The notes under the pieces: model-generated
What the model was told of the DNA's origin: nothing
Databases searched by the model: none
What the model saw: only the letters and a program-made list of their open reading frames with translations
DNA from: Alistipes sp.
GTDB lineage: Bacteria > Bacteroidota > Bacteroidia > Bacteroidales > Rikenellaceae
Reading direction: 5' to 3'
Assembly: GCA_017465055.1 (NCBI GenBank)
Contig: JAFTWZ010000003.1
Coordinates: 1-40,271 of the forward strand
DNA: 40,271 nt
In this document: positions 5,519 through 30,141 of the stretch, piece after piece
Layout: each line of letters opens with the position of its first letter
How positions within the stretch are numbered: position 1 is the first letter of the stretch
Position numbers and translations under genes: made by a program

Positions 5519-5552
5519 AAGTAAATTTGTCATCTGCTCATACCTCTCTTCG

Positions 5553-15172: not shown

Positions 15173-15225
15173 TTTTATTTATGATTTTTCAGGCTGCTAT
15201 TTAGTTCTGTTTGCAGATTTTTACG

Positions 15226-15233
15226 TAATTTTG
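15226..15233 (+). promoter_or_regulatory. -7 box (TAATTTTG) for the first membrane AraC regulator
   Basis: A TAnnTTTG match 26 bases before the ATG at 15260. No well-spaced -33 box was found. Confidence 0.35.
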
Positions 15234-15259
15234 CGCCAAAGTATAATGGTAATATTCAG

Positions 15260-16381
15260 ATGGGATACAATGATTTTATATTGACAGTCAATTCGTCCAG
15301 CATCATCATATTATTAGGAATGGCCGCTGTACTGCTTGCTGCTACCCGTTTTCGTGGAGAGAGCGGATATGCGGCTGCCATTATTGTACTACCCAATGTC
15401 CCCGTCTATATATACAATATGAGCCGAATGTTGGAATGGCACAACTTGACTCTTTTTATGTTTCCCATCAGTTTCTCGGTCAATACGCTGCTGATGCCAT
15501 TGCTATGGCTCTTTGCCAAGAAGAATTTTGACCTGAACTTCCGCCTCAAACCTATTCATCTCCTGCATCTCCTGCCCGGTCTTCTTTGCCTCGGACTTAG
15601 CCTTGCTATTCCTACTCAGGAGCGTATTGCATCCATTCAGCACGAGATGACAGGTGATGACACTTGGATAGGCGACATCAATACGATCATTGTTTTCATA
15701 CAGATGGTGGCTTACTTCGCGGTCATCTTCCGCTTCCTTCATCGGAAGAAAAAAGCCATCAGAGATACCGCTTCCGATGCAGAATGGGTACAGAAAGAGT
15801 GGATTCCGGTCTTTGAGTATCTCTTCGCCGCACTGTTTGTCATCGTGATGGTATGTTACTTCATTTGGCCTCGTACCGATGCCTGGCTCATTCAAATCCT
15901 GAATGTCGTTGCGATGTTTTATCTGGTCTATAATTCCATTGCCCACCCGGTGGTGCCAATCAAGCAAGTTCCCGAGAATATTCCGGAGCCTACTGAACCC
16001 TATGAACCGGAAACCTCTGCCACTCCTGCTATGGACAATAGGCAGATGAACGAAGTCTGTGAACGTGCTTCCCGATATCTGGAGGAGTCGAAAGCCTACT
16101 TGCGTCCCGATATTTCGTTGGCAATCTTCGCCAAGGAGATAAATATTCCGCAACGCACCCTCTCGCGTTCCATCAACGGGTGTCTGGGCTGTAACTTCTT
16201 TGAATTTATCAATCGGATGCGTGTCGAAGAGGCGAAGCGTCTGTTATTACAACTTGACGTAAAAGATTACAATATCGATAGCATCTATACTGATTGCGGC
16301 TTCCGCTCTCGTTCCACATTCTTTCTGGTTTTTAAGAAAGTGACTGGGAAGAGCCCAGTTGCGTGGCTACGGGAGAGATAA
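15260..16381 (+). CDS. Membrane-anchored AraC-type regulator 1
   Basis: 373 residues. The N-terminal half (about 1-225) is a membrane sensor with six to seven hydrophobic helices. The C-terminal part (about 275-373) is an AraC/HTH_18 domain: LAIFAKEINIPQRTLSRSIN, FFEFINRMRVEEAKRLLL, then the second helix-turn-helix CGFRSRSTFFLVFKKVTGKSP. A variable acidic linker (PEPTEPYEPE) joins the halves. Such proteins are found widely in Bacteroidetes and are presumed to pass a membrane signal directly to DNA; targets are unknown. The start MGYNDFILTVNSSSIIILL is shared with the paralogue at 16797. Confidence 0.85.
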   Translation: MGYNDFILTVNSSSIIILLGMAAVLLAATRFRGESGYAAAIIVLPNVPVYIYNMSRMLEWHNLTLFMFPISFSVNTLLMPLLWLFAKKNFDLNFRLKPIHLLHLLPGLLCLGLSLAIPTQERIASIQHEMTGDDTWIGDINTIIVFIQMVAYFAVIFRFLHRKKKAIRDTASDAEWVQKEWIPVFEYLFAALFVIVMVCYFIWPRTDAWLIQILNVVAMFYLVYNSIAHPVVPIKQVPENIPEPTEPYEPETSATPAMDNRQMNEVCERASRYLEESKAYLRPDISLAIFAKEINIPQRTLSRSINGCLGCNFFEFINRMRVEEAKRLLLQLDVKDYNIDSIYTDCGFRSRSTFFLVFKKVTGKSPVAWLRER

Positions 16382-16527
16382 TCCAGTCCAAACATCCGAT
16401 TTTCGTACTCATTTCGTGGTATAAACACCTCCTATTTTCTTTTTTTTATATTCCTTTGCAGAAGAAAAAAGATAGCAACGGTCTTAAAAAAAGTCGTAAA
16501 CCAACCCTTTATTCTGAATAAAATGCA

Positions 16528-16535
16528 TAACTTTG
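16528..16535 (+). promoter_or_regulatory. -7 box (TAACTTTG) preceding a long leader
   Basis: A TAnnTTTG match. If used, the mRNA leader before the ATG at 16797 is about 255 bases. The -33 region is weak. Confidence 0.35.
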
Positions 16536-16542
16536 CCGATGC

Positions 16543-16796
16543 AAATCGCAAGGTTAGCAATGTTTAGTATTATTGGGAAGTGTGTTGCTTCATTCTCTGA
16601 AAGCGAATCTGGTAAATTTACAGGACGAGAATAAGCCGACTCTTCACGCAGATTGTTATATATCCACCCCTCCCGTGGAGGGTGTGTCGTGTATACCTGA
16701 TGCGTGGGCCGTTGCTTGTTTTAGTCCGAGGGTTTTACCAGAACCTGCTTTCATAAACAAGTGGATGGACCACGCTTTTTTTACAATAGCAGGTAT
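16543..16796 (+). other. Structured leader upstream of the second membrane regulator
   Basis: The region contains the hairpin CACCCCTCC-CGT-GGAGGGTG at 16663-16682 (one bulge) and a small frame (16573-16821, ending ...VLPEPAFINKWMDHAFF) that overlaps the regulator start out of frame. The frame lacks features of a real protein, but its sequence seems familiar from leader regions in related genomes. It is a candidate cis-acting RNA or leader peptide; low certainty. Confidence 0.3.
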
Positions 16797-17972
16797 ATGG
16801 GATACAGTGAGTTCGTTCTGATAGTCAATGTCGCCTCCGTCATCATTCTGTTGGTGATGGCCCTGTTGCTCTGCCTGGCAGCACGCTTTAAGGGAGAAAG
16901 CAGCTATGCCGCAATGATTATCGTGGTCTCCACCGTACCCGTATATATCTATAATGTATGCCGCAGTCTGGAGATGTATGAGGTTGCCATCTACTTCGCT
17001 CCCATAGCCTTTTCGGTCAATCTCACGCTGATGCCCCTGCTATGGCTCTTGGTGCAGCGGGGCTTCAATCCCTATTTTAGATTAACACCCCTGCGGTTAC
17101 TCCATTTTCTGCCTGCCGTGCTGTCACTGATACTCTTCTGTGTGAGCATCTTCTCATTGCCGCAAAGTCAACGCTACGACTTTATGATTAACGAGAATAT
17201 GGGCGATGATACTTGGTTGGGCGATGTGAACTATTCAATGGTGTTGCTTCAGCTCGTCTGCTATTTCTATGCGATATTCCGCCATCTTCGCAGGGTGAAG
17301 CACTTTGTTCGTAGCCACTACTCCGCCGCCGAATTGCAACGCAAGGTGTGGATTCCACGCTTCATAGGGCTGTTTGCCGCTATGTTTGTGGTGGTGATTG
17401 TGTGTTATGCCCTCTGGCCACGCACTGATGCGTGGCTACTCCAGCTGCTTACGGTAATCATTATGGGCTACCTGCTCTATGCGGAACTTGCCATAGCCCT
17501 TGAGCGACACAGCAATGATACGGTTATGACCACCGTTGCAGCCGAGGCGGAAGCGGAGTTCATCGCTACCGAAGTGAAGCCCCAGCCACAGTCCGAAGCC
17601 GACAACGGCAAGGAGGAGATGCAGAAATTGGAGCAATATGCCCGTCAGGTGGAGGAATACTTGCGTACTTCGGAGGTATATGTTAATCCCAACCTATCGC
17701 TTAAAGATGTGGCAACAGCGACGGGAATATCATCCAAGAACTTATCTAAATCTATCAATGCCACATTAGGCAAGAACTTCTTCGACCTTGTGAATGGTTT
17801 CCGTGTGGAGAAGTCAAAGATATTGTTATTGGAGAAGAAAGAAAAAGGTTACACACTCGAAACCATTGCCGAAATGTGTGGATTCAACTCACAAGTTACC
17901 TACTGTAATGTGTTCAAGAAAATAATAGGAATGACTACCAATCAATGGATAAAACTCTTCAAGGATAAGTAA
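16797..17972 (+). CDS. Membrane-anchored AraC-type regulator 2, paralogue of the gene at 15260
   Basis: 391 residues from the ATG at 16797, chosen because MGYSEFVLIVNVASVIILL aligns with the start of regulator 1; an upstream in-frame GTG at 16761 is unlikely. There are six to seven membrane helices in 1-230, a conserved GDDTWLGDVN loop and WPRTDAWLLQ before the last helix. After an acidic linker comes an AraC domain (SLKDVATATGISSKNLSKSIN, FFDLVNGFRVEKSKILLL, CGFNSQVTYCNVFKKIIGM). The two regulators share order and motifs but diverge strongly, so the duplication is old or they were acquired separately. No target promoter is evident. Confidence 0.85.
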   Translation: MGYSEFVLIVNVASVIILLVMALLLCLAARFKGESSYAAMIIVVSTVPVYIYNVCRSLEMYEVAIYFAPIAFSVNLTLMPLLWLLVQRGFNPYFRLTPLRLLHFLPAVLSLILFCVSIFSLPQSQRYDFMINENMGDDTWLGDVNYSMVLLQLVCYFYAIFRHLRRVKHFVRSHYSAAELQRKVWIPRFIGLFAAMFVVVIVCYALWPRTDAWLLQLLTVIIMGYLLYAELAIALERHSNDTVMTTVAAEAEAEFIATEVKPQPQSEADNGKEEMQKLEQYARQVEEYLRTSEVYVNPNLSLKDVATATGISSKNLSKSINATLGKNFFDLVNGFRVEKSKILLLEKKEKGYTLETIAEMCGFNSQVTYCNVFKKIIGMTTNQWIKLFKDK

Positions 17973-18078
17973 ACTATAAGTGTGTGGAAAATGCGAAAGA
18001 ATTAAAACAGCTTATAAGAAAGTTATCCGCCTAAAATCTCAACGGAGTGAAGATTGAAACATCTCAATCCTCTTTTTA

Positions 18079-18115
18079 GGGGATGACAAAAAAGTAAATT
18101 TGTCATCCCCATTTT
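18079..18115 (+). terminator. Rho-independent terminator after regulator 2
   Basis: GGGGATGACAAA pairs perfectly with TTTGTCATCCCC around an 8-base loop, followed by ATTTTAT. Confidence 0.7.
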
Positions 18116-18120
18116 ATCAG

Positions 18121-18240
18121 GAGGTTGAATAAAAAGATGTAGTTTTAGGCTTGCGAAGCCCGAAAAAGCGGAGTTTACTTTGCGTAAATGAGCATTTTGA
18201 GGGCGAGCTTAACGACAAAATACACTTTTTATTCAGCCTC
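18121..18240. mobile_element. 120-bp inverted-repeat element (second MITE-like family)
   Basis: The ends are GAGGTTGAATAAAAAG and the reverse complement of GAGGCTGAATAAAAAG, with imperfect pairing extending to about 26 bases. The interior has GGCTT-GCG-AAGCC and cggagtttactttgcgtaaatgag. It has no coding capacity and is unrelated to the 193-bp family. Similar short elements are scattered through Bacteroides genomes as far as I recall. Confidence 0.5.
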
Positions 18241-18301
18241 TTTGTTTTTTACTCCATATCCATTTTTCACCCTTTCCATCGCAAATTTGCCTTCCCACAA
18301 A

Positions 18302-18366
18302 TTAATGATTCCGTGCCGAAAAATTAATAATTCAGGGTATTTTTTAATGATGCACGGAATCATTAA
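18302..18366. repeat. Perfect 15-bp inverted repeat with 35-base spacer
   Basis: TTAATGATTCCGTGC at 18302-18316 and GCACGGAATCATTAA at 18352-18366. It lies 80 bases before the small membrane protein gene. It could be a stem-loop or paired operator halves. Confidence 0.55.
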
Positions 18367-18445
18367 AAAACATTCTCCCAATTATTTGCCCCTCTGAATC
18401 ATTCCCGGTAACTTCGCTAACGAGAAGTTTAAAAACAGACAGCGT

Positions 18446-18724
18446 ATGTTTAGCAAATGGATTGATGAATCGGAATTTGATGGCAAGAATGACTTCTTCG
18501 ACAACTCGGTGATGAGTGTGCGTCAGTGGTTGGCGGTAATGTCGGTGATGATTATTCCGGTGGTGAATGTCGTGATGATTTTCTGCTGGGCATTTGCCGA
18601 GAAGGAACTCACCAACTCCAATAAGGTGAACTGGGCACGGGCCTCGGTCATCTTGCTTACGGCATTCGTCGTAGTTATTGCACTTGTAGGTGGGTTTCTA
18701 TTGTTCAGTTGGTATTTGGCATAG
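18446..18724 (+). CDS. Small two-helix membrane protein
   Basis: 92 residues. A polar N-terminus (MFSKWIDESEFDGKNDFFDN) is followed by a membrane helix (about 30-50, AVMSVMIIPVVNVVMIFCWAFA), a charged loop (EKELTNSNKVNWARA) and a second helix (about 68-90). The layout suggests both ends in the cytoplasm. I do not recognise a family. It lies 39 bases before the OmpA-family gene and is probably co-transcribed. Confidence 0.65.
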   Translation: MFSKWIDESEFDGKNDFFDNSVMSVRQWLAVMSVMIIPVVNVVMIFCWAFAEKELTNSNKVNWARASVILLTAFVVVIALVGGFLLFSWYLA

Positions 18725-18763
18725 GTATATAATACAATCATTAACCTTAAAAATTGACGAATT

Positions 18764-20116
18764 ATGAAAAGAGTAGTTATTATAGCGTTGATGCTCACTG
18801 CAATCAGCGGGACAACTGCAGTGAACGCTCAGAGCTGGCTTCGAGGCCTTGGACGTGCAGCGGAGAATGCCGCAAAGCGTGCTGTCGAGCGCAATGTGGA
18901 GAGTGCCACAGAGCGCGCCATCGACCGTGCCTTCAGCGAGACCGAAGATGCTGTTGAGGATGCTGTCACAGGGGAGTCGTCGAACAAGGGGAAGAAGAAC
19001 AAAAACAAGAATGAGAACAACGGCAACAACGGCAACAACAATGCCGACGCGGTCTATGACAATGGAAATGGCGATGCTACCGCTCAAAGCGGAAAGCAGA
19101 AAGGCAAGACCGCCGAAATGAGTTGGAATCGTTATGATTTTGTTGCTGGTGATGAAGTCTTTTTTGAAGATTTGCTGACAAATGAACAGCAAGGCGAATT
19201 TCCTTCTCAATGGGATTTGTTAGGAGGTAGTGCTGAAATTGTAAAGGTAAATGGTGAAAATGCAATTCTTCTTACAAATGATGATACAAGAATTTCGCCT
19301 TATATGGAGAATGGGAAATCCTATTTGCCGGAAATCTTCACAATTGAATTTGATTACTATTCATTTGGGCAGATTGGTGATGATGAGGGAGATAAAACAA
19401 GTAATATCTATGTAAGATTACATAAGCCTGATGCTAATGAAGAATATGTTTATTTTAAAATTCCTTGCCATGATACAGGTGGTGATTTTCGTAGCAATTG
19501 TGTAGCAAGGTCGGGAAGCGATTCAAATCTTGATTTGGATTGGAGTATTCAATCTGTACCAGATGAAGGGTGGCATCATATCGCTATTTCATTTAATAAA
19601 CGGGCATTGAAAATTTATCTTGATCAAACTCGTGTAGTCAATGCACCTAATGTGAAACAAGCGGGTTGGATTTCATTACAAAGTTATCGTTCTGCAAGTG
19701 GACGTGATATGCTTTGTTATATTAAGAACATCCGCATCGCCAAGGGAGCCGTACCTCTCTACGACCGTATGATGTCGGATGGCAAGTTCATCACCTACGG
19801 CATCACGTTCGACGTGGGCAAGGCCACTATCAAGCCCGAATCGATGGGTGAAATCAACCGCATCGTTCAGTTGATGACCGAAAACCCCGACTTGAAGTTC
19901 TCGGTAGAAGGTCATACCGACTCTACGGGTAATCCAGCCAGCAACCAAACCCTTAGCGAGCAACGTTCGCAAGCCATCGTTGCCAAGTTGGTGGAACTCG
20001 GCATTGCCCAAGATCGCCTCACCGCTGTGGGCAAGGGTCAGAACAGCCCTATCGCCGACAACAATACCGATGAAGGCCGTGCGAAGAACCGCCGTGTGGA
20101 GTTTGTAAAGATGTAA
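18764..20116 (+). CDS. OmpA-family protein with central LamG-like domain
   Basis: 450 residues. There is a Sec signal peptide (about 1-23, cleavage after VNA), a low-complexity Lys/Asn/Gly stretch (about 80-100) and a beta-sandwich resembling LamG/concanavalin-like domains (about 150-325, with DEGWHHIAISFNKRALKIYLD). A complete OmpA C-terminal peptidoglycan-binding domain is at about 340-450 (ITFDVGKATIKPESM, VEGHTDSTGN, LSEQRSQAI, RAKNRRVEF). It is probably periplasmic or outer-membrane associated and tethered to the cell wall. Bases about 19126-19735 are much richer in A+T and use different codons from both flanks, suggesting a swapped middle domain. Confidence 0.88.
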   Translation: MKRVVIIALMLTAISGTTAVNAQSWLRGLGRAAENAAKRAVERNVESATERAIDRAFSETEDAVEDAVTGESSNKGKKNKNKNENNGNNGNNNADAVYDNGNGDATAQSGKQKGKTAEMSWNRYDFVAGDEVFFEDLLTNEQQGEFPSQWDLLGGSAEIVKVNGENAILLTNDDTRISPYMENGKSYLPEIFTIEFDYYSFGQIGDDEGDKTSNIYVRLHKPDANEEYVYFKIPCHDTGGDFRSNCVARSGSDSNLDLDWSIQSVPDEGWHHIAISFNKRALKIYLDQTRVVNAPNVKQAGWISLQSYRSASGRDMLCYIKNIRIAKGAVPLYDRMMSDGKFITYGITFDVGKATIKPESMGEINRIVQLMTENPDLKFSVEGHTDSTGNPASNQTLSEQRSQAIVAKLVELGIAQDRLTAVGKGQNSPIADNNTDEGRAKNRRVEFVKM

Positions 20117-20133
20117 CAAATAGTTGTTGCCAA

Positions 20134-20208
20134 GAGAGTGTCCGAGTTGATGTTTCTGGTTCAAACTATAGCAAGTAAAAACTTAATAAACGATAATCGG
20201 CCACTCTC
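20134..20208 (+). terminator. Inverted repeat after the OmpA-family gene
   Basis: GAGAGTGTCCGA at 20134-20145 pairs with TCGGCCACTCTC at 20197-20208 (one mismatch). The loop is long and no T-run follows, so this is a possible terminator or processing site. Confidence 0.35.
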
Positions 20209-20285
20209 GGTAACAACGAGTATAGATATCAAAAGCATTTGCGTGATGTTAATAAAATATTTTAACGAGTAAAAAACTGATTATT

Positions 20286-20645
20286 ATGAAGAACTTTTTT
20301 ATTTCACTACTATGTTTCGTAGGGCTCACACTTGTGGCATCTGGCTGTGGGCAGAAGACTAAAGCCGAACTTGTCATCGACGGTTTTGAAGATTTGATCG
20401 TAGAGGTTGAAGATAAGAAGGGTAAGCTCACTGTTGAGGAGTGGGTTGAGTTGGAGAAGAATTTTAACACACGATTTGAGGAGCTCGGCATTGAGGAGAT
20501 TAATGAGGATGAATTCTCAACATTTCAGAAGTTGGAGCTTGCAGCACTTATGATGCGCTGGACTGCAGCTATGGCTGAGTCGGCACCGACACTCCTCGAG
20601 AGTGGCTTTGAACAGGCAGAGAAAGAGCTAAATAAAACGAACTAA
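20286..20645 (+). CDS. Small helical lipoprotein
   Basis: 119 residues. Signal peptide with lipobox VASGCGQK (C21). The mature part is acidic and fully helical (ELVIDGFEDLIVEVEDKKGK, LTVEEWVELEKNFNTRFEEL, FQKLELAALMMRWTAAMAES). It resembles other small helical lipoproteins of Bacteroidales with no assigned role. It lies 20 bases before the zinc-ribbon membrane protein, so both are probably in one transcript. Confidence 0.75.
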   Translation: MKNFFISLLCFVGLTLVASGCGQKTKAELVIDGFEDLIVEVEDKKGKLTVEEWVELEKNFNTRFEELGIEEINEDEFSTFQKLELAALMMRWTAAMAESAPTLLESGFEQAEKELNKTN

Positions 20646-20665
20646 CGATTAAAAAGTAGACGATT

Positions 20666-21121
20666 ATGGCATACTGTGATAAATGTGGCGTACAGGTCGC
20701 CGATGATGTTCGCTTTTGCCCCGCGTGCGGATTTAAATTGATGGAGGCCCGCGAAGATAGCGATAATGCAAAGGATACAACAACAAGTTGTGATGTAGAG
20801 AGTAATAAGGCAATGGCAGTGTTGTCATACCTCAGCATTCTTGTGCTTATTCCTCTCCTTGGAGCAAAGAACTCACCATTTGCCCGCTTCCATACGAATC
20901 AGGGATTGATACTATGTATCGCTACCATATTGTATAGTGTTGCTTGCACAATCATAAACTCAATAGTTCTTGCCATATCGTGGAGGTTGTATTTTATAAC
21001 GACGTTGCTGAGCCTTGTAACTATAGTATTCGGAGTTCTTGCGATAATCGGTATTATAAACGCTGTGAACGGCCGTATGAAAGAGCTTCCCGTAATAGGC
21101 AGATTTAGAATTTTGAAGTAG
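20666..21121 (+). CDS. Zinc-ribbon membrane protein, DUF4870-like
   Basis: 151 residues. The N-terminus is a zinc ribbon (YCDKCGVQVADDVRFCPACG, two CxxC pairs). From about 45 it is membrane embedded with three to four helices, including SYLSILVLIPLL and FARFHTNQGLILCIATILYS, the pattern of DUF4870/Tic20-like proteins (xxxFARFHxNQGLxL). The function of these proteins is not established. It starts 20 bases after the lipoprotein and ends 23 bases before the Big_2 gene. Confidence 0.8.
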   Translation: MAYCDKCGVQVADDVRFCPACGFKLMEAREDSDNAKDTTTSCDVESNKAMAVLSYLSILVLIPLLGAKNSPFARFHTNQGLILCIATILYSVACTIINSIVLAISWRLYFITTLLSLVTIVFGVLAIIGIINAVNGRMKELPVIGRFRILK

Positions 21122-21144
21122 TAAAATATTAAAACATAACATAT

Positions 21145-22734
21145 ATGAAAGCTTTTAGATTTATATTGCTTATTACCGCGATAGCAATCGTAGCGTGCGG
21201 AAAGGGTGATGAAGATGTAAACAAAGTCGTTGCGGTAAATTCGGTGGCTATCAGTCCCAATGGGCCTATAACACTATTCCCAGGCGAGGAGGTGACGCTT
21301 ACGGCAAGTATAGAGCCCGAGAACTCGACAACGCGCAAGGCAGAGTGGAGCAGCGACAACAGCTCGATAGCAACGGTAACTGCGACAGGCAAAGTTAAGG
21401 CCATAGCAGTGGGTACGGCCATTATCACAGCTAAGGCCGAGGATAAGGTGGCAACCTGTCGCATAGATGTGACGGAGGAGATTATCGCGGTCGAAGATAT
21501 TGTGATATCGCCCACCGGACCACAGACACTTCAGCCCGGCGAGGAGTTGCAGCTGACAGCAACCATATCTCCCGAGAATGCGACAAACAAGAGCGTGATA
21601 TGGTCGAGTGACGATCGTGATATAGCAATGGTTGATGCCACGGGTCTTGTAAAGGCAATAGATGAGGGCGTGGCTATCATCACAGCCTCGATAGGTAAGC
21701 TGACAGCAACTTGCAAGTTGACGGTAGCCCGAGAGATTATCGAGGTTACGTCGGTGGAGATTACCCCCGAGGAGCCAATCACTATCACCGAGGGAGAGGA
21801 GTTGCAGCTAACGGCAACTATAGCCCCCGAGAATGCTACAAATAAAGAGGTTACGTGGTCAAGCTCGGACAAGACGATAGCAACGGTAAGCGAAACAGGC
21901 CTTGTGACGGCTATTGCTGCGGGCGAGGCGACAATCATCGCCTCGGCAGGAGAGGCGAGCGATGAGATTGTAATCACCGTTGAGCAACCTTCGACACCCG
22001 TAGTAACAGTTCCCGATGGTTGGATAGTAAATGGTAACACTGCAACCTATAAAGTAAGCACCATTATGGACTTTGATCTGGTGGTTACTTTTGAGAATGA
22101 GGTTTGCAAAACGGTAAGATTTACTACTCTTACACGTGAATCAAGAGCAACAGATATTGAGGCGGTCTTCCCAGAGTCGGTACTTGATGCTTTTGCAATC
22201 ACGGGGCGTGGCACAGTGGCTACAATCGACTTATTGCTTGTAGCAGGGTGTAAGGAGTATTTCGAGAATTTGACTATGGCAGAGATGTTTGCAGCCTTTG
22301 GCGACAATACATCGGCAATCCTCGCCAACTGGACAACATCGTTCAGCGTTACCAATCTTGTTACAGGTAATTGGGAGATGCCCGACATCAATACTCTACG
22401 AGAGAGTGTAAACGGTGGTAAAGGTGACGGTTTTAGCATAATGAGGGTTTTAGTTACATACAATGAAATAACAGGTACAGTTGATTCTACAACTTGGACG
22501 ATTGGTTTTGAAACAGACGAGATTGCTGCTAACTTCTTGCAACTAGTACAAAGACAGAATGAAGTGTTGTTTGACAGATTTGCTGATTATGTCCGCGAAG
22601 TGCAACCTCGTGAGCCTATATTCCAGATAGATGTGACCGATATTTTCCCTGAATCCGATCAATCTGCGATGGAAGATGTATTATCAACTGCAGATGTCTG
22701 TCGCGATCTTCTTAGCTTGGCGGTAGGGTTGTAA
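21145..22734 (+). CDS. Lipoprotein with three Big_2 (bacterial Ig-like) domains
   Basis: 529 residues. Lipobox AIAIVACGKG (C18). Three tandem Big_2 domains occupy about 30-112, 115-195 and 198-278. Each has LxPGEexxLTAtixPENat, WSSdxxxIAxVxatGxVxAIaxGxAxIxA. Big_2 domains usually act as spacers or adhesive units in surface proteins. The C-terminal 250 residues (about 280-529) show no family I know; they include a mixed helical segment (FAAFGDNTSAILANWTTSF, FADYVREVQPREP). Surface exposure is inferred from lipidation and domains. Confidence 0.82.
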   Translation: MKAFRFILLITAIAIVACGKGDEDVNKVVAVNSVAISPNGPITLFPGEEVTLTASIEPENSTTRKAEWSSDNSSIATVTATGKVKAIAVGTAIITAKAEDKVATCRIDVTEEIIAVEDIVISPTGPQTLQPGEELQLTATISPENATNKSVIWSSDDRDIAMVDATGLVKAIDEGVAIITASIGKLTATCKLTVAREIIEVTSVEITPEEPITITEGEELQLTATIAPENATNKEVTWSSSDKTIATVSETGLVTAIAAGEATIIASAGEASDEIVITVEQPSTPVVTVPDGWIVNGNTATYKVSTIMDFDLVVTFENEVCKTVRFTTLTRESRATDIEAVFPESVLDAFAITGRGTVATIDLLLVAGCKEYFENLTMAEMFAAFGDNTSAILANWTTSFSVTNLVTGNWEMPDINTLRESVNGGKGDGFSIMRVLVTYNEITGTVDSTTWTIGFETDEIAANFLQLVQRQNEVLFDRFADYVREVQPREPIFQIDVTDIFPESDQSAMEDVLSTADVCRDLLSLAVGL

Positions 22735-22797
22735 ATAAAAGCCATAATGAAGTAAAACCCAACAAACATCATATAATAACTAAACAAGATTGTGATT

Positions 22798-23352
22798 ATG
22801 AAAAGAATTTTTTCTACTTTGGTAATTTTGGCAGCAGCGCTTATGTTTAGCAACACTGCCTCTGCACAGAAATCTGTGGGTGACCCTGTATTCTACAAAG
22901 GGGACAACATTTTAAGCCTTACAATCGGTTATGGTTGGGGCTTCGGACAGCGCTTGGCTTATGAACACGCAGTAGCAACCTTCCTAGACGACAAAGCATC
23001 TATCGGTGTGGGTGGTGCTATCGGCAACAACTTCCGCAGTCGCAACTATGGCTATGGTGTTAGATACTTTGAGGATCGCATCGGCATCAGCGTGGTAGGC
23101 TCATTCCACTACCAGTTTACCGCAAAACTTGATACCTATGTACAGCTCGGTTTCGGTGGTGGCTACTGGATGTATAAGTGGAAGGATGATCTTTACGATG
23201 ACTACTACAACGCCTATGCTAACCACGCATTCTTTGACTTCACAAGTTCGTTGGGTGTGAGATACTATTTCTCTCCTAAGTGGGCGGTAAATGCAGAACT
23301 TGGTTGGACCGCTGGTAGCTTTATTATGGCAGGTATTACTCACCGTTTCTAA
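22798..23352 (+). CDS. Outer membrane beta-barrel protein
   Basis: 184 residues from the ATG at 22798; a GTG six bases upstream in frame is less likely because MKRIFSTLVILAAALMFSNT is a standard signal peptide start. The mature protein is a series of alternating aromatic strands (LSLTIGYGWGFGQRLAYEHA, GISVVGSFHYQFTAKLDTYV, YYFSPKWAVNAELGWTAGSF) ending in an aromatic residue (ITHRF), as barrel proteins do. It probably makes an eight-strand barrel. It is common in Bacteroidetes, with no assigned substrate. A structured region follows it. Confidence 0.8.
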   Translation: MKRIFSTLVILAAALMFSNTASAQKSVGDPVFYKGDNILSLTIGYGWGFGQRLAYEHAVATFLDDKASIGVGGAIGNNFRSRNYGYGVRYFEDRIGISVVGSFHYQFTAKLDTYVQLGFGGGYWMYKWKDDLYDDYYNAYANHAFFDFTSSLGVRYYFSPKWAVNAELGWTAGSFIMAGITHRF

Positions 23353-23362
23353 TCGTTAAAGT

Positions 23363-23447
23363 ATGAGGGTTTCTAATCACCCATTTTGTGATACTGTATT
23401 CGCAGTAATGATTAGAAATAACTCTGTTTTGTGTTAGAAACCCTCAT
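23363..23447 (+). terminator. Terminator-like structure with a competing stem
   Basis: ATGAGGGTTTCTAA at 23363-23376 pairs perfectly with TTAGAAACCCTCAT at 23434-23447, followed by CTTTTCTC. An alternative 9-bp stem, TTCTAATCA (23371-23379) with TGATTAGAA (23409-23417), reuses part of the same left arm, so the two cannot form together. Confidence 0.5.
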
Positions 23448-23468
23448 CTTTTCTCGATGACGACTATG

Positions 23469-23531
23469 TCGAAGCTCCGAATCCGCACAGATGTTTGGAT
23501 TGGGTGAATTGGGTGGATTCGGAGACTTCGA
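23469..23531. repeat. 16-bp imperfect inverted repeat
   Basis: The left arm TCGAAGCTCCGAATCC (23469-23484) and right arm GGATTCGGAGACTTCGA (23515-23531) pair with one bulged base around a G/T-rich 30-base loop. It lies 36 bases before the next gene. Confidence 0.5.
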
Positions 23532-23567
23532 ACCGTATTGTATTAAACTGATTAAAAACGTAGCATT

Positions 23568-25715
23568 ATGAGAAATTTATATATGACATTGTTAGTCTGT
23601 TTTGCCACTCTGGCAATGTCAGCCTGTAGCAGGTCTGAGCCGACACCAAGTCCAGGCAATACGGTAAAACCAGCAGAACCTCCTACCGCAAATGTAGATG
23701 TGAGAATGAGCAACGCATTTGTTGAGGGTACCGTCAAGAGTAGTTTTGGTGAGCCATTAGAGGGCGTAAACATTACAAGTGGCGAAGCTACAACCACATC
23801 GGATGTAAACGGAAACTTCTCGTTTAGCCGTGTGGCCGATGCTTCGGGTCGTTTTGTATTGAACTTCTCAAAGACAGGTTATTTTAATGTTACTCGTTCG
23901 GGTGTCATAGACGACAATGTTACCATCAATGTCGTTATGCAGTCAAAGGGTGGAGCAAATACAGCATCAGTGCAATTCAATGCTTTCGAATCAGAGATTA
24001 TCGAGACGCGAGGTATGCAGGTTAATATTCCAGCTAAATCATTGGTAACACTCGATGGCAGAGAGTATAGCGGTACGGTACAAGCAGATATGTTCTATCT
24101 TTCACCCGATAATGCCGACTTCACCGAGCTTATGCCAGGTAGCGACCTTGCAGCAGTACGTGAGGACGAAAGCGAGGTGACGCTTATTTCGTATGGTATG
24201 GTGGAGGTGAGCCTTACAGATGATGGGGGAAACACCTTGCAGCTAAAAGAGGGTGAGCGCTCAGAGATGACATTCCCCATTCCCGAGACAATGCGCGACA
24301 ACCCTCCGCCAACAATTCCATTGTGGTACTTCGACGATGAGTCTGGTCTTTGGGTCGAGGAGGGTATAGCAACACTACAAGGAGACGTGTATGTAGGAGA
24401 AGTGGGACACTTCTCGTGGCACAATCTCGACGTTCCCGCAGAGCGAGTATCTATATCGGGAAAGGTGACGGACTCTCGCAACCGCCCTGTGTCACGCGTG
24501 ACAGTAACCGTGGAACAGACAAGCGCTGTGACCAATGCAAATGGAGAATATAGTGTATATGTTCCAGAGAATACACCTGTTACGGTGGTCGTAGAGAGTG
24601 AAGACTACTTCAATTACTCGCCCGTGGCGAGTGTCGATGTGGCAGGGTATCCCGGAGGCTCAGTGGTACGCGATGTAGATTTGCAGTTGCCAAGTGTACC
24701 TGTCATATCGGGTCGCATAACCGATACAAGTGGCAATGCCATTTTGGCAAGCATCTATTGCGAGTATGAAGCAAACGGTATAACACACACTTCGGATGTA
24801 GCATATAGCAGCTCTCTGACAGGCGAGTATGCTCTGCGCCTACCTCTTGATATCAGTGGTAGCGCCACATTCTATATCGAGCCGCTGGGTAGCGACCCCA
24901 TAACTCGAGTAGTAGAACTCACGGGCGAAGATCAGACCCTAAACATAGAGTTTGATGGCACTTTATCGCCCATTGATGGAAGTGTCATTCAGATCAAGGG
25001 GCCTAATGGCAATACGCTATTTGCAGCAACAATCAACCCTGAGACCGCCTATGCCGTCATCGCCGAGGAAGCATTCTCATATTTGGCATCGTTTGCCGAT
25101 AGCCCAGAGAGTATGTTTACCGTAGGCGTAGAGATGTATGACGACTCTATAAACTCTTATAACACAGCGAGCGTTGCACTTCTATGTATGCTCAATGGCG
25201 TGTATCACGTATTTGCAGCTGAGAACTCTCACGTAGAAATCACATCTGTCGATAATGAGAGCATTTCGTTTGTAGTAATTGCTAATGGCGTTTACTACAC
25301 AGATACTGATACAGCCGAGGTGGAGGCTACACTATCTGCGACTATTACCTCGCCGCTCAACAAGATGAATATGGATATGCTCACCAATGTTACCGATTGG
25401 AGTTCACTCAAATGTGCAGAGCTTATTCCTGAACTTTTAACCCCTATTGATCTTGTGGCGTATATCTCTTATATGGGTATTGATGTTGAGGCCCTATACT
25501 ACCACGCTACTGAGGCGGAAGCCGACGAGGTGTGTAGTAGGCTTAGTAGTGCGGGGTGGAGTCCTATTGATGAGCAACGTACCGAGGCGGGATATACGAT
25601 AGCATATATGGATAGTGGCTTTGCTATGGTTATGGTGCAGTATGAGCCAGATGGCATTGAGGCTCCTGATGCAAATAGATATACACTATGTGTGATCCCC
25701 GTAACATTTTTGTAG
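23568..25715 (+). CDS. Lipoprotein with carboxypeptidase-regulatory-like domains
   Basis: 715 residues. Lipobox LAMSACSRSE (C20) and a Pro/Thr linker. Regulatory-like beta-sandwich domains lie at about 45-125 (VEGTVKSSFGEPLEGVNITS, TTTSDVNGNFSFS), 293-375 (ISGKVTDSRNRPVSRVTVTV, TNANGEYSVYVPEN) and 376-455 (ISGRITDTSGNAILASIYCE). Between the first two, about 130-290 resembles a ZU5-like region (GMQVNIPAKSLVTLDGREY, PLWYFDDESGLWVEEG). The C-terminal 240 residues are unassigned. There is no catalytic site; these domains serve as cell-surface scaffolds in Bacteroidetes. The next small lipoprotein follows after 20 bases. Confidence 0.8.
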   Translation: MRNLYMTLLVCFATLAMSACSRSEPTPSPGNTVKPAEPPTANVDVRMSNAFVEGTVKSSFGEPLEGVNITSGEATTTSDVNGNFSFSRVADASGRFVLNFSKTGYFNVTRSGVIDDNVTINVVMQSKGGANTASVQFNAFESEIIETRGMQVNIPAKSLVTLDGREYSGTVQADMFYLSPDNADFTELMPGSDLAAVREDESEVTLISYGMVEVSLTDDGGNTLQLKEGERSEMTFPIPETMRDNPPPTIPLWYFDDESGLWVEEGIATLQGDVYVGEVGHFSWHNLDVPAERVSISGKVTDSRNRPVSRVTVTVEQTSAVTNANGEYSVYVPENTPVTVVVESEDYFNYSPVASVDVAGYPGGSVVRDVDLQLPSVPVISGRITDTSGNAILASIYCEYEANGITHTSDVAYSSSLTGEYALRLPLDISGSATFYIEPLGSDPITRVVELTGEDQTLNIEFDGTLSPIDGSVIQIKGPNGNTLFAATINPETAYAVIAEEAFSYLASFADSPESMFTVGVEMYDDSINSYNTASVALLCMLNGVYHVFAAENSHVEITSVDNESISFVVIANGVYYTDTDTAEVEATLSATITSPLNKMNMDMLTNVTDWSSLKCAELIPELLTPIDLVAYISYMGIDVEALYYHATEAEADEVCSRLSSAGWSPIDEQRTEAGYTIAYMDSGFAMVMVQYEPDGIEAPDANRYTLCVIPVTFL

Positions 25716-25735
25716 AACAAACTATAAATTAAAAT

Positions 25736-26179
25736 ATGATAAATATGAAAAAGTTATATATGTTAATAGTGGCAATGGTATTTGTAGGGCTAAGCCTCGC
25801 CACCGTATCTTGTAGTGAAAAAGATGAGCACGCATTTGATCCCAATGATCCTGGTAGTGCCGGCACTGTGGATGTAGGATGGGAAGAGAGTGGAGACACC
25901 GTAAAGTTTACAGTTGAGCAATCTTGGGGTTATGGTATGGCTTATATCGTTACCTATACCTGCAAATTCAACAGCGATGGATATTGTATCGAGGCTATTG
26001 CGCGCTACGAATTTTCGTCGGCTGAGCTTGCAGAGATATTTTATGAGTCGTATCGTCAGATGTACGACGAAATTAGCAAATCGGGCAGAACTGTAACCGT
26101 CGATGAAACGGAGGATTTCGAAGGTGTGACAAGAGATGAACTCCGTGCACTCTATGAGTCTATGGCGAACGCATACTAG
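25736..26179 (+). CDS. Small hypothetical lipoprotein
   Basis: 147 residues; the ATG at 25745 (MKKLYMLIV) may be the true start. Lipobox SLATVSCSEK gives an acylated Cys. The mature part has an acidic linker (DEHAFDPNDPGSAG), short strands (VKFTVEQSWGYGMAYIVTYT) and a C-terminal helix pair (SAELAEIFYESYRQMYDEIS, VTRDELRALYESMANAY). I do not recognise a family. It probably shares a transcript with the preceding large lipoprotein and is closed by the terminator at 26202. Confidence 0.7.
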   Translation: MINMKKLYMLIVAMVFVGLSLATVSCSEKDEHAFDPNDPGSAGTVDVGWEESGDTVKFTVEQSWGYGMAYIVTYTCKFNSDGYCIEAIARYEFSSAELAEIFYESYRQMYDEISKSGRTVTVDETEDFEGVTRDELRALYESMANAY

Positions 26180-26201
26180 TATATATTTAATGGGTTATGA
26201 T

Positions 26202-26233
26202 ACGGGAGCCCTGTAGTAGGGTTCCCGTCTTTG
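26202..26233 (+). terminator. Rho-independent terminator
   Basis: ACGGGAGCCC at 26202-26211 pairs with GGGTTCCCGT at 26219-26228 (one G:T), followed by CTTTGT. Confidence 0.7.
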
Positions 26234-26332
26234 TAGCAAAACGAAGGTTATAGCCGATTTTGCCGCAGATATCGCATAGAAGTTCTGAATGCCCCTTTAT
26301 GGTCTATACCATATAACCAACAATAGACAATT

Positions 26333-26761
26333 ATGAAAAAGTTTGTTATTTTACTATTTGCTGCGTTGCCGATGTTGGCTGCTGCACAAATGACTCCCGA
26401 AGCGATTATTGCTAATGCTCCGGCATTGCCGACAGCCGAAGAATTGGGAGCGAAAGAAAAACATAGTGATGCGTTCAAGGCAAAGATGAAAGACCTGAAT
26501 GCTAAACTCCCACGCACTTCCCAAATCCCGACACCCGTAGGCAATTACGCTCCCGACTGGGCAATCGCAATGAAAAAGAATGATGTGAAGCACATCTTCT
26601 TCGTAGCCGAGACTAAAGGGTCAATGTCGTCAATGGACTTGTCTGCCATCGAACGAGCCAAAATTGACTGTGCGGAAAAGTTGTTCAACTCCATTTCCAT
26701 AGCCAATGTGAAGTACCATAAAGTGGCTACTTACCAAGACTTGATAAGCGTAATGATATAA
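26333..26761 (+). CDS. Chimeric ORF: secreted-protein N-terminus joined to a type III restriction (Res) C-terminus
   Basis: 142 residues. Residues 1-19 are a clean Sec signal peptide (FAALPMLAAAQ) and 20-60 a helical secreted segment (MTPEAIIANAPALPTAEELG). From about 62 the sequence changes to IPTPVGNYAPDWAI, VKHIFFVAETKGSMSSMDLS, IERAKIDCAEKLFNSIS and YHKVATYQDL. That is the endonuclease-domain tail of type III restriction Res subunits, where the D of PDWA and the E and K of ETKG belong to the PD-(D/E)XK nuclease site. Fusion of an exported N-terminus to a cytoplasmic nuclease tail makes no functional sense, so it is probably a recombination scar. The rest of Res and any Mod gene are absent. 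Confidence 0.65.
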   Translation: MKKFVILLFAALPMLAAAQMTPEAIIANAPALPTAEELGAKEKHSDAFKAKMKDLNAKLPRTSQIPTPVGNYAPDWAIAMKKNDVKHIFFVAETKGSMSSMDLSAIERAKIDCAEKLFNSISIANVKYHKVATYQDLISVMI

Positions 26762-26766
26762 GCGTT

Positions 26767-26889
26767 AATGATGTAATTTGTGAATTTATCAAAATAGGAA
26801 AAGCCCAAACTATAGATGCTTTAATAGATATTCATCCGTTTGAGAAATACATAATTGAATATTTCTATGATGGAATATTATCAAATTGA
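26767..26889 (+). other. Short open remnant frame after the chimeric ORF
   Basis: A frame without a clear start reads NDVICEFIKIGKAQTIDALI and ends HPFEKYIIEYFYDGILSN then TGA. It is A+T-rich and looks coding, but the protein is not recognised; it may be part of a gene cut by the same rearrangement. A TATCTTTG box at 26900-26907 has no plus-strand gene after it. Confidence 0.3.
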
Positions 26890-26971
26890 TGAAAAACACT
26901 ATCTTTGCACTCAGAAAAAGCGTTCTTTTCAATAATGCAGAATAAGACAGATAATGGAACTTCGCTCGTTT

Positions 26972-28105
26972 CTAAATCGTTACCTGTCGTAAATTCAAAT
27001 TCTGTAAATCATTTGTTTTCATCGAGAAAGAAGAAATGCTATGACTCGTAATATGTGTGCTAAGATGCTTCTGGATTCCGCAGACATCGGCTATCTCTTT
27101 TAGGTAGCTGTTCATATTCTGATTGCAAGGAACGGGAAGTAATACGCCACGCTTAATGCAAGTCGGGTTGTTCTCGTATTTCTTGAGAATTGCCATTGGG
27201 ATATCCAGCAACGGGATATTGCACATATTATTTGTCTTTTGGCGCGTCTTGCGAATCCAATAGTGCCCGTTGTTGTCTTGCACGATATGCTCGGCGGCGA
27301 GTTGCTGAACATCTATAAATGCCAATCCCGTAAAGGCTACAAAGATAAATACATCACGCACCAATGCAAGACGAGGCAGCTCAAACTCCTTTTGGTATAT
27401 TATCATCAGTTCATCCATCGTCAGGAACTCACGCACAACCTCCTTTTCGTGGAACTTAATGCCTGCAAACGGATTCTTCTCTATCCACTCGTTGGCAAGT
27501 GCAAGGTTAATAATCTTCTTCAAGCACTTCATATAGCGGATAACGGTATTCTGCTGACAATTTTTCTCGGTCTTCAAATAGAACTCAAAGGCTCGCACAA
27601 GTTCGCCATTTACCTCCGTAATAGGCAAATCCTCTTTGTCGTATTTCAGTTTGATAAGTTCAGCAAGATAGCGGGTGCAACTTTCGTAGCGTCTTACGGT
27701 GATTAGGGCAAAATCTTTACCCACCAAAGCTCGGCATTGCTCGTTGTGTTCACGCATAGTACCGATGATGGTGCGTACTTGCTCCACCTTTTTGTCCACT
27801 CCAAAGAACTTTTCCTGTAATATCCGGGCAGTGATAAGTTCCCCATTCTCTTCGAGTTGCGTGTAAATTCGGTGGAGTTTGATTCGGCTCTCCTCGATGT
27901 AGTTGTTTAGCTCGGTTGATTTACGGCTTTTGCCCCTTGCACACTCCTTGGCCTGATTCCACGATACAGGCTCAATGCTTTTGCGGATGTTTGTTTCTAC
28001 TCTTGCGCCATTGACTGTGATACGCATACATACTGAAGCCTCACCGTTCTTCAGCAGCTTGGTTTTCTTGATAAAGAAAAGCACATTAAATGAATCTCGT
28101 CTCAT
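26972..28105 (-). pseudogene. Decayed tyrosine recombinase (Bacteroidetes integrase type)
   Basis: 377 residues. The N-terminal arm-binding region (VLFFIKKTKLLKNGEASVCM, ITVNGARVETN), the SAM-like core-binding domain (about 110-205) and the start of the catalytic domain are intact: FVAFTGLAFIDVQQL, where the first Arg is absent as in several Bacteroides integrases, and the Lys strand YWIRKTRQKTNN. The HxxR box should read like HTARHTFA, but here it is HITSHSIS, so the Arg is Ser. The normal tail with the second His/Trp and nucleophilic Tyr is replaced by about 25 unrelated residues. It should be catalytically dead. It lies downstream of tRNA-Phe in the usual place for an integrase. Confidence 0.8.
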
Positions 28106-28109
28106 TTTC

Positions 28110-28149
28110 TCCTACTTTTAAGTTAAACATTAGTTCGACAAAAGTAGGA
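28110..28149. promoter_or_regulatory. Inverted repeat around the integrase promoter
   Basis: TCCTACTTTT at 28110-28119 and AAAAGTAGGA at 28140-28149. On the minus strand the distal arm contains a TACTTTTG -7 box (28139-28146), and the proximal arm overlaps the AGGAG before the integrase ATG. It could be an operator. Confidence 0.35.
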
Positions 28150-28299
28150 ATCCGAGTCCGTTTTGATACCATGCAAAATATTGTGAATCAGCGAAAAACG
28201 CTCTTTCAAGATGGAGATGTTTGGAACACCTGTTTGTTCCACCTCCTGCTCCACCAAAGGCGGTCGTGAACCGCACTTTTTTGCGTTTTTAGGGGAAAT

Positions 28300-28335
28300 A
28301 AAAAAATCCCGATTTTCGTTGAAAATCAGGATTTT
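28300..28335 (-). terminator. Terminator of tRNA-Phe
   Basis: On the minus strand AAATCCTGATTTTC, a 3-base loop and GAAAATCGGGATTT (one mismatch) are followed by a T-run. It lies about 25 bases after the tRNA 3' end. Confidence 0.7.
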
Positions 28336-28359
28336 ACGTTGTTTTGCTTTTCTTTGCTG

Positions 28360-28432
28360 TGGTGCCACCGGGATTCGAACCAGGGACACAAGGATTTTCA
28401 GTCCTTTGCTCTACCAACTGAGCTATGGCACC
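28360..28432 (-). tRNA. tRNA-Phe (GAA anticodon)
   Basis: A 73-nt cloverleaf: acceptor GGTGCCA/TGGCACC with discriminator A, D-arm with GCTCAGTTGGTAGAGC, anticodon loop CTGAAAA giving GAA between AAGGA and TCCTT, and T-arm with GGTTCGAATCC. CCA is not encoded. tRNA genes are common integration sites, and a decayed integrase lies downstream. I found no second copy of the 3' end in the window, so no att pair can be given. Confidence 0.95.
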
Positions 28433-28466
28433 ATCGTTATGTCTGCTAACTTTGTTTTAGCGAGTG

Positions 28467-28497
28467 CAAAGATAGCTACTTTTTTTTATTCTGCAAA
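28467..28497 (-). promoter_or_regulatory. Promoter of tRNA-Phe
   Basis: On the minus strand TTTG (28494-28497), 19 bases, then TATCTTTG (28467-28474), ending 34 bases before the tRNA. Confidence 0.7.
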
Positions 28498-28570
28498 TTT
28501 TTATGGCAAAAAAATATCAAAAATATTTACTAAAATTACTCCATATTTATTAATATCTTGTAAATTAGTA

Positions 28571-28606
28571 GGTTATGTTATATGCGCATTGCGCACCTAA
28601 CATACC
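28571..28606 (-). terminator. Hairpin after the FISUMP-type gene
   Basis: GGTTATGTTA and TAACATACC form an outer stem with one bulge, with an inner GCGC-ATT-GCGC hairpin. It lies 78 bases beyond the stop of the minus-strand operon. It has no T-run, so termination is only likely. Confidence 0.4.
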
Positions 28607-28683
28607 TTATCAAGCACTAAGATTTAGTCGTCTCGTTACCCATCTCATTGGAGCGAGGATGTTACTTTGCGCTGGTAGGGTGT

Positions 28684-30141
28684 TTAATCCCTTACGCAGC
28701 GCACTGGCATACCATTAGCGCGATGCATTGGGCGAGCGGTGTCGAGGCCATTCCACGTGCGTGTTGCAGTGTTAAGGTCGAAATAGAGTGCCGTAGCGCT
28801 ACCATCATCATTGGTGGTCGATGTCCAGTAGTATCCTGACCAGGGCACAGGTAGCTCAATATCATCGTTTACAATATCTAAGCGGCAGTCGAGGTAGTTG
28901 CGGCGGCCCTGAGCCGTGAAGAAGTATTCGGCGTTTGTCTCGGTGCTTACGAGCATAAGGCCATACTGCTTTTGTAGCTCCTCCCAGGCCATATTGTCGT
29001 AGCTATATTCGATTGTTAGGTTCTCGAAGAGCGAGGCATCGGGTACGTGCCAGCCTGCAGGGCAGGGGTCGTTGTTGGTCTTAGACTCACTACTCCAGAG
29101 CGCATCATCGTGGCCGTCATAGAGCCAGTCGTAGCCATTCTCCTTATATCCTTTAACAAGGGCACAAGGGTTAGCATTTGCCCAGCTGAGCGCGCCCTGC
29201 TCGGCGGTAGACTCTACGTACTCGAGGTTGAGGTTGCTGCCCGACGCTGTGTAGAGCACGTCGTCGTGGTTACCTGGGAAGTTGTAGCCCTGGGGGCCTA
29301 CGAATGGGTCTTTACGGCCCCACTGGTAGTACATACCGTAGGATTCGTATATCTTGCTGCCTATTGTCGAGCCGTTGCTGTTGTGCTCAGCACCGAGGTT
29401 AATAGTCATCATTGTCTGGCCGTTGAGCGTTGTGGTGTTCTCCGCAGCTGTAGGGTCGTTGTTCGTTACCCATATATGCCAGCTCCACTCGAGCTCGCCG
29501 CCCTCGTCATATGCGCCGATAAGGGCGTTGCCGTAGTGAACATTGCCCGTATCGCTATCGTCGTCATCCTCCTTAGCATCCTCGAGGTAGAAGGTGGCCT
29601 TGCCGTCGCGCATATCGAGATACTTGATAAGACCCTCTTTGGTCTCCCATATTATCTTCACGGTGGTAGTCTGTAGCTCTATATCGCCATTGCCTCCGCG
29701 CATAGGGTTAAAAACGTAGCGCGTATTGGGCTTAGTTGCCACGTAGCAGTTCGCGGGCATATCGTAGAAGCTAATCTCGTCGCTCACTATTGCAACGTAG
29801 ATAGACACGCTCTTGGTTGCTCCCGTAGGCGTATATCCCGTAAGTGTTATTGTGCCGCTGTCGACCTCCTCGTTGTCAAACGACGTGGGTGCTGTAACGG
29901 TAATTGTACCTGCGTACATATCTATATCGTCAACACTCCAGCCTGTGGGTACGCTGGTGGCCGAGATAGAGGTTATGTTGCTACTGTCGAACGACGTCGT
30001 GCCGCTTGCACCGGGCGTAGCCACAAGGATACCCTTAGCTGGGACGGTGAAACTCTTAGTCTCCTCCTTGCTACACGACGTAAGTGATGCTGACAGTAGT
30101 GCCATTGAGGCAAAAAACAATGTATATACTATCTTTCTCAT
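28684..30141 (-). CDS. Lipoprotein with BACON-like and FISUMP-type domains
   Basis: 485 residues. Lipobox SLTSCSKEE (C23). Residues about 30-120 form a BACON/Ig-like beta-sandwich (SFDNEEVDSGTITLTGYTPT). The C-terminal half has the FISUMP/major-paralogous pattern: GMYYQWGRKDPF, NDPCPAGWHVPDASLFENL, GYYWTSTTNDDGSATALYF, and the ending RANGMPVRCVRD. Such proteins are exported and surface-located in Bacteroidetes and Fibrobacteres; no enzymatic role is known to me. It is the last gene of a four-gene minus-strand unit, 40 bases after the SPOR gene. Confidence 0.82.
   Translation of the reverse strand: MRKIVYTLFFASMALLSASLTSCSKEETKSFTVPAKGILVATPGASGTTSFDSSNITSISATSVPTGWSVDDIDMYAGTITVTAPTSFDNEEVDSGTITLTGYTPTGATKSVSIYVAIVSDEISFYDMPANCYVATKPNTRYVFNPMRGGNGDIELQTTTVKIIWETKEGLIKYLDMRDGKATFYLEDAKEDDDDSDTGNVHYGNALIGAYDEGGELEWSWHIWVTNNDPTAAENTTTLNGQTMMTINLGAEHNSNGSTIGSKIYESYGMYYQWGRKDPFVGPQGYNFPGNHDDVLYTASGSNLNLEYVESTAEQGALSWANANPCALVKGYKENGYDWLYDGHDDALWSSESKTNNDPCPAGWHVPDASLFENLTIEYSYDNMAWEELQKQYGLMLVSTETNAEYFFTAQGRRNYLDCRLDIVNDDIELPVPWSGYYWTSTTNDDGSATALYFDLNTATRTWNGLDTARPMHRANGMPVRCVRD

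Follow-up and report, generated by a model that had tools for sequence, protein, structure and literature searches.

A fused reading frame beside a cut integrase gene in Alistipes, and a family of mobile elements found in integrase genes of Bacteroidales

Introduction

Mobilizable transposons and other integrative and mobilizable elements (IMEs) of the Bacteroidetes, such as Tn4555, NBU1, cLV25 and MTnPi, carry tyrosine integrases, MobP-type relaxases and NikA/MobC-type proteins, as do relatives of the element described here. The targets given for them in the accessible part of one source are tRNA genes, housekeeping genes, AT-rich or preferred sites, and oriT (PMC5704250). As far as that text goes the elements studied here differ in their target, which is the HxxRH codons of integrase genes. 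In the same part of that source IME_oriT of Streptococcus agalactiae integrates at the oriT nic site of other elements (PMC5704250). It thus also uses a conserved site of other mobile elements, but that target is the nic site, whereas here an integrase gene is interrupted. Insertion into an integrase gene has one near precedent in print, in a source accessible in part. One copy of a conjugative transposon of Prevotella intermedia, CTnPi2-a, lies inside an integrase gene, while CTnPi2-b lies in a tRNA gene; the accessible text treats this as a single case, with no box, motif or family-wide habit described (PMC4755523). In one Streptomyces element the integrase gene is interrupted by a transposon (PMC9513070).

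A second comparison is with type III restriction enzymes of the EcoP15I type (Pfam PF19778). The DNA analysed here resembles their endonuclease domain in sequence and in its PD..ExK residues. It differs in holding the last ~78 residues only, with no helicase part and no Mod, and with a signal-like peptide ahead of them. We refer to the whole stretch of 40,271 nucleotides, one contig of a draft Alistipes genome (G000) that is estimated to be 84% complete, as the window.

Results

The locus

The features of the window discussed below are as follows.
15175..26440, + strand: left flank shared in blocks with contig G102:C5, ending in the secreted-gene fragment
26333-26761, + strand: fused open reading frame of 142 aa, with no internal stop
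26333..26508, + strand: 5′ part of a gene for a secreted protein, which supplies residues 1-59 of the fusion
26499..26508, + strand: junction 1, a microhomology; the window reads ATGCTAAACT, and both L081 and L029 read ATGCCAAACT
26499..26745, + strand: 3′ part of a res gene (type III restriction), coding for the endonuclease domain and its PD..ExK residues
26746..26898, + strand: junction 2 and a piece with no known parent, one frame of which is open for 43 aa to a stop
26899..27052, − strand: left end of an integrase-targeting mobile element, from alignment with L027-L029 and L048; its border with the integrase is approximate
26959..26984, − strand: conserved element-end motif GGTAACGATTTAGAAACGAGCGAAGT, 0 mismatches
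27053..28105, − strand: N-terminal part of a tyrosine integrase, broken off at the HxxRH box, whose first His codon is 27055-27053
28359..28432, − strand: tRNA-Phe (ARAGORN), the likely integration site of an outer element

A reading frame with two parents

Residues 1-59 of the fused reading frame come from the start of a secreted protein, and the C-terminal ~78 residues of a type III Res follow in frame. A preliminary description of this DNA had proposed just such a chimera, of a signal peptide and a Res nuclease tail, with an in-frame junction near residue 60. At the DNA level the halves have different parents (L081-like for the first, L026-L029- and L048-like for the second) and no single Pfam model spans them; the junction falls at residues 57-59, where the sequence AKL is common to both. 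The fragment of the secreted-protein gene is 91.5% identical in DNA to G102 over 26230-26440 and 89% identical to L081 over 26332-26508. The gene is intact in both relatives, encoding 322 and 321 aa respectively, and residues 1-60 of the fusion resemble the start of the G102 protein while residues 1-71 resemble that of L081. The signal peptide was called by eye only. The first half has no Pfam family at E 1, and the full L081 protein none at E 0.01.

Residues 55-132 of the fusion match PF19778 (RE_endonuc) at E 3.4e-23, passing the cut-off, so that the second half does match Res. The tail also matches the last positions of the NCBIfam type III Res model PRK15483, below the model cut-off, and the Res part aligns with EcoP15I Res (phmmer, E 6e-4) with retention of the PD and ExK residues, which we take to be the catalytic ones. 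From 26499 on, the DNA is 88-89% identical to L026-L029 and L048. No helicase family (ResIII/DEAD) is found in the 142-aa protein, while the relative L048 has one. No methyltransferase was found among the five reading frames scanned over 23568-30141, nor by eye in the list of reading frames of the window; a Mod gene is present in the Res relatives L026 and L048.

None of the 80 loci kept for the fusion query matches both halves. L081 matches the first half only, and most of the others match from residue 57, with a few from residues 55, 58 or 39; the one matching from residue 39 (L041) is an ordinary Res. Among the 180 genus genomes searched, the Res tail has matches at E 1e-5 or better in seven, and the N-terminal half has matches at E 1 or better in 70, with seven places reaching E 1e-4. 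The genome of the window is the sole one in both short lists of strong matches. Searched with the fusion protein at E 10, it yields the fusion itself and nothing else, so no intact copy of either parent is seen there.

Could the fusion be a working secreted nuclease under selection? The frame is open, and the signal-like start and the PD..ExK residues are retained. Six of the bases private to the window in the Res part are synonymous and two non-synonymous, against 2-15 and 0-2 in six relatives; there is thus no excess of amino-acid change, and no sign of decay, in the Res part. However, these counts are too few to show selection, and they fit a recent origin. The helicase part of Res is missing, no other genus genome is strong for both halves, and no kept locus joins them. 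We therefore regard a working nuclease as very unlikely. We regard the fused gene as an ordinary scar. If the 142-aa protein is made at all, it would be an orphan nuclease domain that is exported, most likely without function.

Three junctions rather than one deletion

At junction 1 the parentage of the DNA switches, being L081-like up to 26508 and Res-like from 26499. The ten-base sequence ATGCCAAACT is exact between L081 and L029, the nearest parents found for the secreted gene and for Res. Five other Res relatives compared are one or two positions off this 10-mer, and G102 lacks it, though it is nearer to the window over the first ~100 bp of the gene; L081 and L029 are therefore the nearest parents found, and may not be the exact ones. 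The ten common bases would fit a microhomology-mediated deletion. A second Res gene, in L028 (~1590-1870), is cut within about 25 bp of the window breakpoint, with the same element end adjoining.

The other end of the Res fragment is also altered. In the closest relatives Res ends in YQDLIDGMNAIS or a near variant, while the window reads YQDLISVMI; the last Res codons have been swapped at ~26746 (DGMNAIS to SVMI). The piece that follows has no convincing parent among the loci compared and no Pfam family above cut-off. Between the res match and the element end lie 4.0-4.1 kb in L027-L029 and L048, compared with ~150 bp in the window, so this ~4 kb was either lost from the window or never present. 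In L029 it holds the PD-Lambda-5 A and B genes (PADLOC), near res, and the same gene order was read in the lists of reading frames of L027, L028 and L048. PD-Lambda-5 is absent from the window, deleted or never present. No PD-Lambda-5_A relative was confirmed in the viral_contigs collection.

The order of res, element end and integrase is common to the window and L027-L029. Beside the same type of end, res is whole in L027, where the contig stops within mod; in L029 the contig stops within res, and in L028 res is truncated. Beside a diverged end in L048, res is whole and mod, again cut by the contig edge, is present in part. The preliminary description read the fusion as the deletion of a type III locus whose two borders lie inside Res and inside a secreted-protein gene. 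Both borders are supported, but a single deletion is insufficient, because the Res end has been replaced, ~4 kb is absent and the neighbouring integrase is a second hybrid. Of the relatives with an intact mod-res at this place, which it suggested seeking, none was found beside the secreted gene; other genes follow that gene in G102 and L081.

A second hybrid at tRNA-Phe

The integrase reading frame of the window (26972-28105) is a second hybrid, beside the Res tail. It is 96.7% identical in amino acids, over 359 residues, to an intact integrase of 410 aa (L141:16409-17641, genome G034), where the same order of tRNA-Phe and then integrase is found. The box reads HITSH in the window, at −71 from the motif. 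From there the frame runs into SISSFSMKTNDLQNLNLRQVTI, the last 13 residues of which are also the terminus of three different integrases, those of L027, L028 and L029. All four integrases are cut at HxxRH or a remnant of it; in L048 the copy of the end is diverged and no integrase adjoins it. We considered that the tail might be the integrase's own C-terminus, and rejected this because the intact G034 integrase runs on to LGH..Y. The left end itself (26899-27047) is 93% identical to L029 over 151 aligned bp, upstream of the PD-Lambda-5 genes there. Searching for the direct repeat of tRNA-Phe that would mark a second att site of the outer element gave chance-like short copies only, the longest exact one being 13 bp.

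A short frame on the opposite strand of the element end (window 26935-27050, +, and in L027-L029 and L048) starts ATGCAGAATAAG and sits behind a promoter-like TATCTTTGC motif. In L048, in which the integrase frame is broken, this short frame is open. These features were read by eye.

The window thus has the end motif and an integrase N-terminal part cut at the box. An integrase belonging to the inserted element, and the C-terminal part of the host integrase at the other end, were not found in it. In the incomplete draft genome G000 an own-type integrase search at E 1e-70 gave a single match, of 34% identity. Nothing close to the missing half of the host integrase was found there either, C-part matches reaching at most 64% over part of the query. 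The window is therefore a relic and not a working member.

Flanks and integrity of the contig

The left flank aligns with G102:C5 in blocks, those over 400 bp being 93-98% identical and shorter ones 77-92%, with unaligned gaps between. This tract was probably shared recently, by transfer. Its genes include regulators and OmpA-like, surface and secreted proteins. In the right flank, coding blocks have 65-77% identity to G102, and the G102 region 3′ of the secreted gene is 72% identical to G000:C35. No empty or intact version of the exact window locus was found.

This disparity between the flanks, in a draft genome, is what would be expected if several gut genomes had been joined in one contig. 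Yet junction 1 has just 10 bp in common, shorter than the word lengths usual in assembly; the box position and the element end recur in other genomes, including single-contig G471; and the remainders of the parents are not found in G000. An assembly artefact is, in our judgement, unlikely.

Window positions 748-940 and 5323-5520 are inverted copies, 80% alike, of a ~195-bp repeat that occurs on many other G000 contigs at up to 99% identity, and so forms an interspersed repeat family. A 152-bp sequence (window 18089-18240, L114:773-924) lies directly upstream of the secreted gene in G102 and G055, in opposite orientation; the window lacks it at that position.

The element end in Bacteroidales

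The element end is widespread in Bacteroidales. With up to 3 mismatches, the motif GGTAACGATTTRGAAACGAGCGAAGT occurs at 25 places in 19 of 393 genomes of the order, the window included, while the reversed motif, as a control, occurs at none in the 393. Three viral contigs also hold it, and two of them look identical over the stretch inspected. A longer end pattern had no match in viral_contigs, matched the window alone in the 393 genomes, and gave three matches, none new, in the 14 genomes behind the loci. Left-end DNA had no match among phages and one among plasmids.

An upstream integrase was sought at 33 loci (the window, L027-L029, L048, L145, L149-L159 and L161-L176), of which L048 has no motif at 4 substitutions, leaving 32 places. 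The integrase flag was raised for 18; L156 was discounted, having element-end residues only. An integrase cut at the box thus adjoins the motif at 17 of 32 places, which are partly dependent (L150 and L151 look alike, and L152 and L172 have one host integrase in common), and in 17 of 17 the box or a variant lies 71 or 72 bp before the motif. The remaining 15 places have no integrase N-terminal part, and we rejected the proposition that every element with the end motif sits in an integrase. Box-like residues are nevertheless present at −71 in five of these 15 (L156, L165, L167, L175 and L176). Since they occur without an integrase, the box at the left end is partly carried by the element and its position alone is no independent proof. 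The decisive evidence for integrase targeting is the other element end.

L149, L158, L159, L164, L170 and L173 have sister ends (GAAATGAGCGRAGT) with no adjoining integrase. In this group, the contigs G368:C4 and G238:C18 also encode an own-type integrase, of 50-51% identity.

The interrupted integrase resumes at the far end

Of 20 stretches retrieved, 11 were extended contiguously and searched for the other end. In six of these sites the cut integrase gene takes up again at the same box, 21-29 kb further on and next to the integrase of the element itself. For four of them a pattern search recovered the C-terminal part, which begins at the box and is on the same strand; the left and right box codons are 26,523 bp (G471a), 20,956 bp (G471b), 25,405 bp (G468b) and 29,016 bp (G284) apart. 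In G471c and G345 the C-part was recognized by eye at about 21 kb, with LTH instead of LGH, and by tblastn at E 3e-9. The remaining five sites gave no C-part by pattern search, although one of them, G468a, has a frameshifted piece. The left and right borders have in common either TTCCA or a short sequence that surrounds the first His codon.

As an alternative, the tail that the integrases share could stem from gene conversion among them, with no element inserted. The left end does read integrase-like after the box (SFSLKTNDLQ, by eye), a region in which integrases resemble one another. Gene conversion does not account for the resumption of the integrase at the same box 21-29 kb off in the four contiguous cases found by pattern, nor for L178 and L180, where one element (99.5% identical over 4,143 bp from −74 on) lies in two different integrase genes. 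Gene conversion is largely refuted in the relatives and we give it very little credence overall, the window itself retaining the left end only.

The element's own integrase

The own integrase starts near the right border. It is a tyrosine integrase of 409 aa, found in seven of the extended stretches; its matches to recombinase models lie below their cut-off. Searched with a single copy, 39 of the 393 genomes of the order have a match at E 1e-70. Eighteen of the 19 own-type matches of at least 50% identity were examined, G238:C18 being left out. A strict pattern placed an integrase C-part 267-301 bp before the own-integrase start in 12 of the 18, and tblastn with the C-parts of three uninterrupted integrases placed it at the same distance in 15 of 18, at E 3e-9 or better. 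The three without a tblastn match are L212 (box residues only), G468a (frameshifted) and L224 (50% identity, none). Among 15 distant integrases (32-38% identity) used as controls, one of which had only 378 bp of upstream DNA, 14 had no C-part match; the other, L237, has a match at 619 bp, which over the sequence inspected belongs to a neighbouring integrase that is not interrupted.

Named phage and plasmid records gave 13 own-integrase hits, and of six tested, five have the C-part (L245-L247, L249 and L250) and L248 (55% identity) does not. That of L249 lies at 73 bp, a distance to a merely estimated own-integrase start. For own integrases of about 60% identity or more (17 + 5 loci, with identity taken against two different queries) the C-part adjoins 20 of 22, with remnants in the other two. 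We rejected targeting by all own-type integrases, L224 and L248, near 50-55% identity, having no integrase C-part. We also rejected the idea that the circular record L245 is an excised form, as it has no end motif at 6 substitutions. In L250 (1-540) the element border lies inside a gene of the element's own integrase type, 86% identical over 63 residues, a case of kin targeting.

Cargo and mobilization genes

The defence genes differ between the three G471 elements. Ten of their proteins were compared with PADLOC, and the best matches include GajA and GajB (Gabija), type IIG restriction enzymes, NsnA/PD-T4-2_A, PbeA and SspC; one of the ten has no PADLOC family at E 1e-20. G471a encodes a relaxase (PF03432, E 4e-33) and a NikA-like/MobC protein, together with a second integrase and a DUF3408 protein, and reading frames resembling relaxase and mobilization genes are also listed in L178-L180. 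An own integrase, a relaxase and a mobilization protein, as expected of an IME, are thus present in relatives.

Discussion

The reading that we prefer, with a probability of roughly 0.8, is that the fused frame is a scar and the window the relic of a defence-carrying element that lay in the integrase of an outer element and was collapsed by deletions. The two parents, the junctions, the element end and the targeting by relatives are observed; the order of events given here, the way the deletions came about and the absence of function are inferred. The outer element would have entered tRNA-Phe. A second, defence-carrying integrative element, whose cargo would have included a type III restriction system, may then have inserted at the HxxRH codons of the outer integrase by site-specific recombination, as its relatives suggest. 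Later deletions would have stripped the two elements of most of their DNA, the own integrase of the inner one with it, and one of these deletions may have joined res to the secreted-protein gene across the 10-bp microhomology, keeping the frame by chance. Most of the nested pair seems to be gone, and the Res tail seems to be a remnant of the cargo.

Tyrosine recombinases require a catalytic tyrosine in their C-terminal part. Insertion at the box separates this part from the rest, so the rival integrase is switched off. It is likely, if less firmly so than our reading of the window, that Bacteroidales harbour defence-carrying mobilizable elements whose integrase is aimed at the HxxRH codons, the most conserved catalytic ones, across tyrosine integrase genes generally, and which switch off rival (sometimes kin) integrases and hold the rival element in its place until excision; the inner element's departure would then make the switch reversible. 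The window would be a fossil of one such nesting.

In the openly accessible literature we found no account of an element family that uses the catalytic box of integrase genes as its target. One integrase-gene insertion is already in print, and within the open literature searched, parts of which were accessible in extract, it is the family-wide habit that appears new. If true, integrase-docking elements would be brakes on horizontal transfer, and defence systems would gain a target that nearly every mobile element brings. Such elements could also account for some of the truncated integrases in Bacteroidales genomes.
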